This document shows positions 3,049 through 23,317 of a DNA stretch of 32,153 nucleotides, piece after piece. The notes beneath the pieces were generated by a model. That model was not told where the DNA came from. It saw nothing but the letters and a program-made list of their open reading frames with translations, and did no database searches. Source of the DNA: Candidatus Dojkabacteria bacterium (lineage in GTDB: Bacteria > Patescibacteriota > Dojkabacteria > JAOAGR01); contig JAOAGR010000012.1 in assembly GCA_026415655.1 (NCBI GenBank), positions 1 through 32,153 of the forward strand. Reading direction: 5' to 3'. Position numbers and translations under genes: made by a program. Position 1 is the first letter of the stretch. Each line of letters starts with the position of its first letter.

Positions 3049-3921
3049 ATGTATGATATAAACGAACTTCGAAAAAAGATTGATGAAATAGATAAACAAT
3101 TATTAGATTTACTAAATCAACGTTTTGACATAACTCGCAAGATTGGTAGGTATAAAATTTTGAATGAACTCAAATTTTATGACAAAGATAGGTGGAATGA
3201 GCTACTGAAGAAAAAAATAGAGTATATTAATAATAATTGTAAAAATCTTACTGAAGCTTGTGTGGTGGATATCTTTAACATTTTTCATGCATATTCTATA
3301 CAAAAACAGAAAGAGCTTCTTAAAAGCCAGAATAAAAAAATCAGGGTTGGTATACAGGGGGGACGAGGGAGTTTTAATGAACAAGCTCTACTCGAAAATA
3401 AAGATGTTATATTTGGTAACAAAGAAGTTGAGATTGTCTATTTATATACAACAGAAAATGTATTACATGCTCTCAGTGTCCACGAAATAGATTATGGTCA
3501 GTTCGCTCTTTTCAATATACTAGGAGGAGTTGTTGAAGAAACTATCACAAATGTTGGTAGGTATGATTTTGAGTACGTTAGTTCATATAAAACTCGTATT
3601 TCTCATGCTTTGATGAAAAAGAAAGGAGTACCGCTAGAAAAAATCGATACAGTAATGGCTCACCCACAAGTTTTTTTACAGACAAAAGATACAATGGCTA
3701 AAAAGTATCCAAATCTACGTCAGATCTCAGGTAATGGTGAGATGATAACGCATTCAAAGGTCGCAGAATTATTGGCTAGTGGTGAACTTGAAGACAATAT
3801 TGCGGTAATGGGTTCAAGCTTGTTAGCTGAAATTTTTAATCTCGATATAGTAGAGACAAATTTAGAAGACAATAAAGAAAACTATACATTTTTTGTTTTG
3901 GTTAAACCTAAAAGTTATTAA
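3049..3921 (+). CDS. pheA: Chorismate mutase / prephenate dehydratase-like bifunctional protein
   Basis: N-terminal AroQ-type helix (INELRKKIDEIDKQLLDLLNQRFDITRKIGRYK); C-terminal PDT-like region (GIQGGRGSFNEQA, AHPQVFLQT, NLEDNKENYTFFVLV). Confidence 0.82.
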   Translation: MYDINELRKKIDEIDKQLLDLLNQRFDITRKIGRYKILNELKFYDKDRWNELLKKKIEYINNNCKNLTEACVVDIFNIFHAYSIQKQKELLKSQNKKIRVGIQGGRGSFNEQALLENKDVIFGNKEVEIVYLYTTENVLHALSVHEIDYGQFALFNILGGVVEETITNVGRYDFEYVSSYKTRISHALMKKKGVPLEKIDTVMAHPQVFLQTKDTMAKKYPNLRQISGNGEMITHSKVAELLASGELEDNIAVMGSSLLAEIFNLDIVETNLEDNKENYTFFVLVKPKSY

Positions 3922-4397
3922 TTAAGAATTAACTCTAACCACTTTATAATGTAGCTACTGTTATTTTTTTCATTGTTTATATTTTCATTATCGTAATTTT
4001 TTATACTGTCGATATTATGTGATATTTGTGTTGTAGGATTAGGAGAGATATTTATATTGTTGGCCTGATTTAGTTTATACAAGATTTCTCCGTCTTTTAT
4101 CATGCCCATGTTCCTAGCTTCTCCTTCAAGGTAAAATTGACTAAAAATCTGTTCTTTAATGATCTGTAGTCGCCTGTTTTCGTTTTTCAGTTCTTCAATT
4201 TGCGCTTCATAAATCCTGACTTTTTCTTCAATATTAGATTTATTTATTATACTGGCTAGTATTTCATTGGAGACAAATAAAATTGTGCTAAAGATAATTA
4301 CAAAATAGATAACATGAAAGACTAAATCAGAGAGTTTAGATTTTAAGTTATCACGTATTTTACTTAAATGTATAACAAAAGAATTCCTAATTGTCAT
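3918..4397 (-). CDS. FtsB/DivIC-like septum formation initiator family protein
   Basis: Single N-terminal TM, coiled coil, then EGEARNMGMIKDGEILYKL, typical of the DivIC/FtsB family. Confidence 0.75.
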   Translation of the reverse strand: MTIRNSFVIHLSKIRDNLKSKLSDLVFHVIYFVIIFSTILFVSNEILASIINKSNIEEKVRIYEAQIEELKNENRRLQIIKEQIFSQFYLEGEARNMGMIKDGEILYKLNQANNINISPNPTTQISHNIDSIKNYDNENINNEKNNSSYIIKWLELILN

Positions 4398-4441
4398 ATG
4401 GGCAGTTTTAAAAATATCTTAGCAACTTGAGATAAAAATAA

Positions 4442-4469
4442 AAACCCTTTCTATTTCTAGAAAGGGTTT
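4442..4469 (-). terminator. Intrinsic terminator (minus strand)
   Basis: 11-bp perfect stem AAACCCTTTCT/AGAAAGGGTTT, 6-nt loop, followed on the minus strand by TTTATTTTTATC. Confidence 0.85.
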
Positions 4470-4523
4470 GGTAAAAGAGGCCTACCGATTTATGTTATCA
4501 ATTTTTATAAAATTTGCAAATTA

Positions 4524-4814
4524 TTAAAAGTACAAAATTTTAATCAATAATGCGACAGCTGAAATTAATCCCACAAAAAAGCTTAAATATATAAGTTGAT
4601 TGTTCAAAATTATTTTTTTGCTTTTGTTTTTCTTTGTTAATACACTATATAAAATGTAAAATATTGAGGCTATTAGATTACCAAAAAAGAAACTAAGAAA
4701 AAATACAGCTATTATGTTTATTTCATTGATTTCAGAGTAGGGGGGGATGAAATTGAATATCGTTATTATGCCAATAATTGAAACTGTAATTATTAAAAAC
4801 AAAATCCAGGACAT
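4524..4814 (-). CDS. Small multi-TM membrane protein, unknown function
   Basis: 96 aa, about three hydrophobic segments; bounded by terminators. Confidence 0.65.
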   Translation of the reverse strand: MSWILFLIITVSIIGIITIFNFIPPYSEINEINIIAVFFLSFFFGNLIASIFYILYSVLTKKNKSKKIILNNQLIYLSFFVGLISAVALLIKILYF

Positions 4815-4833
4815 AGTTTATTATGTCCTGGAT
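4804..4833 (-). terminator. Intrinsic terminator hairpin overlapping the next gene's start codon
   Basis: 12-bp perfect stem ATCCAGGACATA/TATGTCCTGGAT, loop GTTTAT; T-rich downstream on the minus strand; ATG at 4812-4814 lies in the stem. Confidence 0.7.
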
Positions 4834-4856
4834 AGTATTGATTTTCAACTTAAGAT

Positions 4857-7800
4857 TTAGGCTAGATATTCTTCTTTTCGAACAAATCTCATCAAAATAT
4901 AGGCTGTAGTTGATACCAATCCTGGTAAAATTAATTGTATAAATCCATCAGCACCAGTGTCCTTTGAAGGTGGTACTATTATCTTTACACAAGCTTCGGC
5001 ATTATTACTGCGAGCACCATTATTATCATTTGATCTAACATCAGTATAAACAGTATCACAAGTACTATTTGTACCAGCTAAAGCCTCATATACAAGCTCT
5101 ATTGTGTATGACCGATTGTATTCTAAGTTACCTAATGGCCCCGCATTAGTTACACTTTGCAGATCTTGAATATTTTCAATTCTCCACGGACTTACGTGTG
5201 GAACATTTGTAATTTCTGCGGCTCTACCATTTGGTGCTGTAATACGTGCTCTTATGGGTCTCAAAAATCTAATATCGTAAGTATCTACAAAATCTATATC
5301 ATTATACGTTCTTCTCTCAGGATCGTTATTGGTAATAGTTATTCTAAATCTTGCTTCTTGGGTAATATTTACCTCCGGTGTAACAGTATTTTTACTAATT
5401 TGTACGGTAAGTGGTCTGGGTGTACGTGTGAAGAACTCATCACAACTTCTCAGATCTACAGTCCTGACTTCGGTTTCGTTTCTATCATTTACAAATCTTA
5501 TGGTGTTTATAAGTCCACAGTTATCATTTTCTCTAGCATTTTGTGGTAAATTGTCTGTGGATTGAAGCGTTCTGAATCTTACTCTCAGAACGAATGTCTC
5601 ATTGACTGTGAGTATTCCATCTTCGCCTGGTATATTACCTGATTTAGGAGGCATATCGTCCCATCGAAGAGTTATTAAATTATTATTTGGACCAATTCTT
5701 GTAGTTGGTGCTAGATTTACATTTCTGTATGTAGCATCAACAAATTCAAGATATCTACTATCAAATTCATCTGATAGATTAAATGATCTTATGTCTACAT
5801 TTCCAGTATTTCTCACAACAATGTCAAAGACAACATTGTTTCGGATATTCTGATAATTTCCCTCAATAAGTCGTTTTTCTATAGTTATATTCGGATTTTG
5901 TGTTTGGCGGGTGCAATTTCTAAATACAAAGGTGGCAGTTTGGCCGTTGGTTAGGTTGCTTATGGTTCTGCCTGGTGGGTCTACAAATTCCAAATTTGGA
6001 TAGTTTGTTGTCTGTCGTATTCTTTGTATTTCATCAGTTATTTCTACTCTTACGGGTATTTGATTAGAAAGAAAATTATGAGTTCTTACGGAGTTACCGT
6101 CTGTCGTGCCAGTTTGTGTAGAATTGTCTTGTGCGGTTATTCTGTAGTTTATTCCACCAAGCCTAATAGTTTGATTATTATCACGACATACAGCTTCAAC
6201 ATTTACTGATTGATTTGTAATTTGAGCGAAATTAAATTCGACAACACATAGGTTGTTTTGATTATTAGATCCCGGTCTTACATCTCCTCTTATCCGGAAT
6301 GTTCTTAAATCATTATCATTATTGACAGTCAGATCGAACGATGGACTATTTGATGTGTTCGATGCTGATAATGGAACCCGTGTACCGTAAAATGTGACAG
6401 CTTGTTCGTATATATATTCACTTGGATTACCTGAGTATCTAATATTTACTCTCAATCTATCGCCTCTATTTACATTACAAGCGGCGGGATTAGAAGCATT
6501 ACATGTATTATTATTTCTTAAATTTGTTATTTCTAAACCTGTACATCTTGGCGTTTCTGTCTGTGCCGGTCTAGCGTTGGCTACACAGATGTTGTCACAT
6601 CTCTGATTTAGATGTCTCCATTGTACACCGGTACAGTTACCACTGTTGTCCCTGTTTACACAGTATACCTCGATTGTATCCCCACCATCAGTGCGACCTG
6701 ATACATTTCTACAAAATCTCATTCCTTCTACCCAATCAGCATGGTAATTCACGCCAAACATTATGCCTTGTCTGAAATCTAGTTTATTATTACATTGTCC
6801 TACTTTATCTTGTCCAGCATCTCCTCGTGATAATTCTGTTAAATAATTATTTGGTAAAGTAAATGTAGCTGTTGTTGTGTTACCAGATGTATTTATGTTT
6901 GTATTGACTGTTCCATTGCGAATTAGATAAAAATTACATCCCTGAGAAGGATCCGCATTAATGGGCTTCATCCAGAAAGTTCTAAATAATGTATTTGCAT
7001 CACCACCAGTTGATATTAATCTCAATTGTGTACCTGGTTTTGGTAATCCATCAGCAATATTAACAGAATTTACAGATGCAACATTTATGTTTTTTTGCTG
7101 GTCATTTGTATCGGTGTATTCTATTCGCAAAGAAGTACATTGTCCTGTTATTGGTATATAACAATTTGTAAAATCAAAAATCGCTTCTCCACCGTTTGAT
7201 ATAGTAATTGTACTTGGGCTTATTTGTCTTAATTGAGTAAATCTTTGTAACTGGGGCAATCTCTTGATTTCATCAAGATTAGAACTGAGTGTGACGTTAA
7301 CATTTCCCGTGCCATTAAATGTATGACTGTTTAGGCTATTACTTGTAGTACCATTCTGCGTCTGTCCATTCATTGAGGCTTGATATCTTATTCCAGTTAT
7401 TTTGAATATTTCATTCCTTCCATCTTCGGTCATACATCTTGCGCCGACTTTTATGGAGGTTGATGCGGGTGGTGGGGTTGTAGGTATCCTACATCCACTA
7501 TATTCGAGTCTACATGTGCCACCATCCCTGAGTTGTAAACCTGCACATGTATTGTTGGAGACATAAACACCATTATTTGATGTTGGAGAGTTGTCCAGAT
7601 TAAGACGTACCGGAAGATCAGTATCAGCGAAGTAATCAAAACTAATAGTGTATCTCTGTACACTTGAACTGGGTCTTACATTATTATACGTCTGTGCAGC
7701 TAGGCCTCTTCCGTCGGAACTGCGAACAACTGATGCCGTAATGGTGAAATTACCTGTTCTATCGTTTCCATCGACACATATAACTTCTAGATTTACACTA

Positions 7801-21653: not shown

Positions 21654-22124
21654 TTAGTATAACAAATTTTTCCAACCTTTTTCTCCAAGAAAACTTTTTC
21701 CTGGACATGTCGTCGTTGGTTTTATCTCACAATGCCCTAGAATTTGACTTATATTTGTTTTGTATTGATATTTTCGTATCAAGTTTTTGAGAGTATTAAT
21801 GACTTTTTTATTCGGAGATTTATTTTCCAAATTATCATTTATGCATATTGCTATAGATTTTGTATTGTATTCCCAATTACCACAATGCCATCCTATATAT
21901 TTATCTGATAATAATTTTTTGACTGTTCCGTTTGAATCCACTAAATAATGATAAGCACAAAATGTCGTTTTTCCATTTCTGATATGACCAGAATCTAATG
22001 GACGGAGATAATGTTCTACATCCTTGTTTAAAAAATCTTTTATATATAAATTTACCATGTGTATTGCTTCTATTTCCCAGATATTACGTTTTTTACCAGA
22101 ATGATGTATTACTATAGTATCAAT
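21654..22124 (-). CDS. N-acetylmuramoyl-L-alanine amidase (amidase_2/PGRP-like); needs non-ATG start to include first zinc-site His
   Basis: In-frame extension upstream of the ATG at 22058 reads (I)DTIVIHHSGKKRNIWEIEAIHM; later AYHYLVDSNG, HCGNWEYNTKSIAICI and GHCEIKPTTTCPGKSF. Confidence 0.75.
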   Translation of the reverse strand: MDTIVIHHSGKKRNIWEIEAIHMVNLYIKDFLNKDVEHYLRPLDSGHIRNGKTTFCAYHYLVDSNGTVKKLLSDKYIGWHCGNWEYNTKSIAICINDNLENKSPNKKVINTLKNLIRKYQYKTNISQILGHCEIKPTTTCPGKSFLGEKGWKNLLY

Positions 22125-22127
22125 ATT

Positions 22128-22400
22128 TTATCGTTGTCTATCAAAATCAACTGAATATTTTTTTGTTGGTATAAGATTTCTTTTTAGTGAAAGAGCAAAG
22201 AATTTAATAATTTTTTCTCTATTTTTTCTTATTAAACCTAAGCTTTGACTAGATGAATTTTTTATATGTTCAGAATATCTAAAAAAATAATAATTTAAAA
22301 ATTCAATGACTATACTGTCAGAATACCAAAAATAGTTTCTATTAGAAAATAGATCCTTACATTTGTAGAAAAATAAATTTAACGAAGAATTAATTAACAT
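22128..22400 (-). pseudogene. 90-codon ORF in the same frame as, and separated by one TAA from, the amidase; possible 5' part of an interrupted gene
   Basis: MLINSSLNLFFYKCKDLF...KKYSVDFDRQR then TAA (22128-22130) then NIDTIVIHHSG in the same frame. Confidence 0.45.
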
Positions 22401-22591
22401 AAACAAAAATAAAAGGGATCGGCACTGCCCCGACCGACCCCGATTGTGACCTCCACTGCCCCAAAGAGGCCACAATCTGAGCCAGTATAATATTTTACAT
22501 TCTTCTAAATTTTTTGCAAGAGCTCAAAAACTTTACTCCCCATAGTCCAGCAGGCCTCTTTTACCGAACCGGACTAGGGGGACTAAAGTCC
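22401..22591 (-). ncRNA. Unassigned structured RNA or 5' leader with intrinsic terminator
   Basis: Promoter at 22598-22626 (-); hairpins 22530-22548/22571-22589, 22442-22453/22466-22477 and 22415-22423/22433-22441, the last followed on the minus strand by TTTTATTTTT. Confidence 0.65.
22415..22441 (-). terminator. Intrinsic terminator ending the structured RNA
   Basis: GGGGTCGGT/GCCGATCCC stem with TTTTATTTTTG tail on the minus strand. Confidence 0.75.
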
Positions 22592-22597
22592 ATAAAC

Positions 22598-22626
22598 AAT
22601 ATACTACATAGTTTGATGTGTGTCAA
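22598..22626 (-). promoter_or_regulatory. Near-consensus sigma70-type promoter
   Basis: Minus strand TTGACA - 17 nt - TATATT. Confidence 0.8.
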
Positions 22627-22905: not shown

Positions 22906-23317
22906 GGGGATGAATCTGGATTCGACGGGGTTGTATGAGATGTAAATGCAGGTCGTGTTTGCGATACAACGTAAAAATATCGCTCTTACAAATAATGCCA
23001 AAGAATCAACATTGGCTGATGCTATAAAATCAGCATTGCAAAAAGTTGCACAGCCACAATTGACTCTTGCAGCTTAATCTATAATCCTCGAAGAGAGGAA
23101 GATAGATATAATCATATGGATTTGTACTTTTGCCATATGATTGAAATATAAAAAGTACAGCTTGTATAGCCTGGTCATCTATACAAGTTAAACTGACCTT
23201 ACCATGTGTTATTTTTGTAAATTTTTGAGACACATGGGAAATTTAAAATTTACTAAGCCTGTAGATTTTACATTTCATAGACTCCGGACGCGGGTTCGAT
23301 TCCCGCCATCTCCACCA
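22906..23317 (+). ncRNA. ssrA: tmRNA (one-piece)
   Basis: 5' GGGGATGAATCTGGATTCGACGGG, 3' GGACGCGGGTTCGATTCCCGCCATCTCCACCA, acceptor GGGGATG/CATCTCC, tag frame ending ...QLTLAA-TAA. Confidence 0.96.

Follow-up and report, generated by a model that had tools for sequence, protein, structure and literature searches.

Positions 22405 to 22592 on the minus strand of the window, by which we refer to the whole analysed stretch of 32,153 nucleotides, contain one copy of a structured RNA family that is widespread in Dojkabacteria (Patescibacteria). By computation, this family is real, structured, previously uncatalogued and nearly universal in the class, and its RNA is encoded by an independent, modular gene outside Rfam, whose 3' hairpin P3 doubles as a predicted intrinsic terminator. 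With model R1, built from aligned full-length copies, the RNA was detected in 70 of the 76 Dojkabacteria genomes that are at least 80% complete and in all 17 sampled families, and a search across 380 genomes of the phylum revealed it in Dojkabacteria and in only four others, two of them with strong matches (7e-8 and 8e-7). When 58 relatives were compared by blastn, about half of these yielded the 3' hairpin, with an identity of 82-97% across 27-45 nt, and a scan for an exact pattern in about 85,000 species genomes returned 61 records, where all titles that name a lineage refer to Dojkabacteria/WS6 or other Patescibacteria. The description in the earlier note as an RNA of unassigned class has withstood comparison with Rfam, which contains no match to the RNA at either gathering or permissive thresholds, and conservation outside of the source genome extends with strong covariation across the whole class.

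The organization of the copy in the window is defined by the following features:

22621..22626, minus strand: -35 element TTGACA of the RNA promoter (sequence inspection)
22598..22603, minus strand: -10 element TATATT (sequence inspection)
22405..22592, minus strand: RNA gene, presumed to start about 6 nt downstream of the -10 element and to end at the T-rich tract (R1 match)
22528..22591, minus strand: P1 hairpin, a conserved module in which a pyrimidine mismatch accompanies tandem U.G/G.U pairs (R3 match at 22525-22594)
22479..22486, minus strand: ACTGGCTC, a possible extension of P2 that would sequester the 5' arm of P3 in an alternative fold (arm pairing probability)
22442..22477, minus strand: P2 linker hairpin, whose loop holds a copy of GGGGCAGTG private to the window genome (absent from the linkers of relatives)
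22415..22441, minus strand: P3 hairpin, the terminator stem, GGGGTCGGT-CGGGGCAGT-GCCGATCCC (R2 match at 22409-22444, 55.8 bits; invariant columns)
22424..22431, minus strand: P3 loop GGGGCAGT, nearly invariant across the family (family alignment)
22405..22414, minus strand: T-rich tract TTTTATTTTT after P3, predicted intrinsic terminator (sequence)

Most of these elements had been described in the earlier note and were found as proposed, including the promoter TTGACA-17-TATATT at 22626..22598, which matches 11 of 12 consensus positions, the long P1 hairpin with 22 pairs and two mismatches, the P2 hairpin with its arms at 22442-22453/22466-22477 and the terminator hairpin preceding the T-rich tract. 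The match to R1 spans positions 22406-22596 (E = 6.5e-22, for a copy that is itself part of the training set of the model), and model R2 identifies one P3 on the minus strand of the window. The stability of the 186-nt stretch following the promoter, which folds with -79.1 kcal/mol compared to a mean of -54.3 (sd 4.1) in shuffled sequences (z = -6.05), was reached by none of 200 shuffles. Two assignments hold in part. The closing helix TGAGC/GCTCA is present at its proposed place but not conserved in the family, where the linker is the variable part, and in the window the 5' arm of P3 could instead serve as the pairing partner of the GCTCA stretch. Similarly, the 9-mer GGGGCAGTG is displayed by both distal hairpins of the window and the loop of P3 is almost invariant, but its second copy in P2 is confined to the window genome and not found in the sister genome G001. 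Sitting on an unrelated stem, the P2 loop resembles a case found in L149, where the stem of P3 is replaced and GGGCAGUG is kept in the loop on an unrelated stem, yet it is private to a single genome. Elsewhere in the window, the open reading frame of the Amidase_2 gene at 21654-22140(-) lacks the first approximately 40 profile positions, and an in-frame stop immediately precedes the missing portion, so that the gene may be a pseudogene.

The conserved structure is reflected in the covariation of its paired positions. For 91 distinct sequences, in an alignment that was fitted to the model and that agrees with the MAFFT alignments A1 and A4, the covariation score amounts to 0.511, compared to 0.176 after shuffling and to at most 0.147 with slid partners, 94.9% of cells pair and double changes are found at 24 of 33 pairs. 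The corresponding score of P1 is 0.696 (vs 0.239 shuffled), and this hairpin is recovered by RNAalifold unaided and has a consensus that consists of one helix with a single mismatch. Its core contains UCC, the mismatch and then a helix where an invariant G.U adjoins a nearly invariant U.G, and the GGA of this module is paired. P3 is almost invariant, with a loop of sequence GGGGCAGU followed by a T-rich tract. The entire RNA, with a length of about 110-250 nt, combines one to three tandem copies of P1 with a variable linker and the 3' hairpin P3. The modularity of this arrangement is illustrated by genomes that deviate from it. P1 is found once or twice and without P3 in family f10 and twice in family f6, L077 contains three copies of P1 and one of P3, and in L157 the whole unit is present twice. 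In family f30, which belongs to another class, both modules are separate genes at separate loci, with P1 located downstream of lon and equipped with its own terminator and P3 located upstream of rho. P3 alone is also found upstream of rho in other Patescibacteria, and in G086 and G107 it occurs without P1, directly after a promoter. P1 and P3 may each be a functional RNA in its own right, with the combined form the result of a simple fusion.

The flanking signals usually mark the gene as a transcription unit of its own. In relatives, the promoter has the form TATRGG-n-TTGACA-N10-TATRGG-n-TATAAT, which is poorly kept in the window copy, and by our count 36 of 76 promoters match all 12 consensus positions. 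The TATRGG signature, preceding the -35 and the -10 element, was observed 56 times near the RNA compared to three times elsewhere in 516 kb, and one of these three distant cases belongs to another copy of the RNA. In 55 of 60 loci of relatives, at least six of the 12 bases that come directly after P3 are T, and in 48 of the 60 a second promoter (at least 10/12 matches) separates P3 from the gene that follows. The boxA-like motif G[TA]TC[TA]TT (GTTCTTTnAAAA) is located at the 5' end in 31 of 70 copies, has a background of 1.2% and is absent in the window copy. In genome G040, the rrn leader contains TGTACTTTGACAACTGAATA; the LSU rRNA match in the same genome (L246) covers about 3.9 kb (3403-7328) and exceeds the length of the model by about 1 kb, suggesting an insertion in its 23S gene. 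DnaA boxes of the form TTWTNCACA accumulate around the RNA gene, with 22 in 21.5 kb compared to 17 in 260 kb of flanks, and the strict box occurs once in sampled stretches of two genomes. Perfect boxes, often two of them about 28-30 bp apart, are located next to the RNA promoter in L074, L094, L097, L100, L102, L110 and others, which hints at a regulation of the RNA by DnaA in some families. A location of the gene at the replication origin was rejected, with the skew switch at about 474 kb and the RNA at 669 kb in G009, and at about 370 kb and 306 kb, respectively, in G001.

The gene neighbours of the RNA differ between families. In most Dojkabacteria, the gene is part of the arrangement clp-radA-[RNA]-rho on one strand, and in most genomes of family f5 of clp-[RNA]-rplJ-rplL. 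In the family of the window, represented by the window and G001, the RNA adjoins tmRNA, and G001 contains no co-directional gene downstream of it within the flank searched. What follows the RNA can thus be rho, rplJ, phage genes or no gene, without a fixed downstream family. A scan of viral contigs provided two matches, both on tailed-phage contigs. The copy at L291:2290-2455(-) contains P1 and P3 (R1 E = 1.3e-18, R3 E = 2.9e-8), and the one at L290:10716-10844(+) is of the P2/P3 type, which corresponds to the 3' half of the RNA (8.7e-12). Both copies precede a replication initiator or a RecE-like exonuclease and are surrounded by genes for RecT, exonucleases, replication initiators, RusA and the terminase small subunit. 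Looser scans of viral sequences with fragments of P3 or P1 returned chance matches only, besides L290 and L291, and named phage and plasmid collections contained no match.

Several known classes of RNA can be distinguished from the family. RNase P RNA was rejected as a candidate, as it is found elsewhere in the source genome (C14:10250), and so was tmRNA, which is a separate gene at positions 22906-23317 of the window. SRP RNA was equally rejected, with RF00169 and RF01854 each found in 0/30 genomes, the Ffh M domain in 0/30 and an SRP54 GTPase above the cut-off in 0/20, in searches where controls were detected; from these searches, the signal recognition particle would appear to be lacking in Dojkabacteria (G000 and 29 relatives). 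CsrB/RsmZ-type RNAs, which titrate proteins, also consist of hairpin modules repeated in varying numbers and end with an intrinsic terminator, but the conserved parts of the present RNA are a paired helix core and the GGGGCAGU loop rather than repeated GGA loops; a CsrA/RsmA-binding RNA was rejected, since the several ANGGA motifs in hairpin loops that define it were not found. Leaders of rrn operons with boxA, which mediate Nus antitermination, resemble the 31 of 70 copies with a boxA-like 5' end, whereas the RNA described here is short, structured and without downstream rRNA, and its copy in the window has no such motif. 6S RNA is similar in being a hairpin RNA that stands alone under a promoter of its own. 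A counterpart of 6S too diverged for Rfam, acting as a decoy for RNA polymerase, would account for a long, stable and near-universal hairpin RNA with a strong promoter and for the lack of Rfam-detected 6S in 28 of 30 Dojkabacteria. However, RF00013 does not match the RNA, the consensus of P1 lacks the large central bubble that mimics an open promoter, and one genus among the 30 genomes checked carries both the present RNA and a separate Rfam-positive 6S RNA (G016:C19:6182-6341 and G010:C74:20054-20214), which makes this assignment very improbable.

The earlier note had left open whether the locus encodes a standalone sRNA or a terminator-controlled leader of the downstream amidase and MFS genes. 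The former is favoured by the combination of strong covariation, class-wide conservation and a putative promoter and terminator of its own in an RNA without Rfam match. The latter found no support, as these genes are not neighbours in relatives, downstream genes have a separate promoter in 48 of 60 loci and a competing antiterminator is not general. In the window, the pairing probability of the 5' arm of P3 in an antiterminator-type fold is 0.85 compared to 0.48 in shuffled sequences (0.84 in G001), and it clearly exceeds shuffles in families f1 and f3; the family mean is 0.516 compared to 0.548, and we have thus rejected the antiterminator as a general feature. The same results bear on a cis-acting leader or attenuator of rho (or rplJ), where P3 would be a regulated terminator and P1 a sensor. 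In E. coli, rho is subject to leader attenuation, and the succession radA-[RNA]-rho that most families share, the isolated P3 of other classes, placed immediately behind a promoter and ahead of rho, the tandem copies of P1 reminiscent of tandem aptamers and the P3-sequestering helix possible in the window and G001 would fit such a role. Still, the RNA has separate promoters and a transcript predicted to be terminated, and it is kept without downstream rho in the window, in G001, in most of f5 and on phages, so that we consider this explanation unlikely for the family, although the near-constant adjacency to rho could reflect a role in cis in the families concerned. Together, the second promoters, the differing neighbours and the phage copies argue against a gene-specific leader and in favour of a trans-acting RNA.

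Such an RNA could pair with mRNAs, with the GGGGCAGU loop of P3 as antisense seed, and this loop is almost invariant, has a second copy in P2 of the window and was maintained on a different stem in L149. Targets of the form CACTGCCCC had been proposed, but in 61 loci the 8-mer GGGGCAGT was found at the permutation mean (4 seen, 4.25 expected), in what is a weak test with a sample rich in shared genes, and since the loci share genes we do not trust an enrichment of TGGGGCA. The sequence of the stem is conserved as well and family f10 retains P1 without P3, which makes antisense pairing improbable. We give about even chances to an independent structured RNA gene whose product works in trans, chiefly through the binding of one or several proteins. 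We infer action in trans from the persistence of the RNA next to different neighbours and on phages, and protein binding from the kind of conservation, namely of a paired geometry and a fixed loop, and from the repetition of P1. The core of P1, with its UCC-mismatch and tandem U.G/G.U pairs, and the fixed loop of P3 would be the sites of recognition and, presented once or several times, they would allow the RNA to titrate or scaffold its partner. The steady location ahead of rho, the boxA-like motif with which about half of the copies begin and the carriage by phages would make the transcription-termination machinery the most likely partner. A more elaborate proposal, where the RNA controls Rho or the balance of Nus and Rho in termination in trans, arose when P3, a mini-hairpin RNA linked to rho, was fused with P1 as a module for protein binding, became tied to DnaA in some lineages and was taken up by phages to act on the termination machinery of the host, is in our view a long shot.

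The non-coding RNAs of Dojkabacteria seem barely studied, and a search of the literature found no description of this RNA; the novelty of our study resides on the level of the RNA family rather than of a mechanism. Owing to its clear modular anatomy, its specific promoter signature and its phage copies, the function of the RNA is open to direct tests in vitro, for which recombinant proteins of Dojkabacteria can be used. Collectively, the family would constitute a core non-coding RNA shared by a whole class of bacteria.
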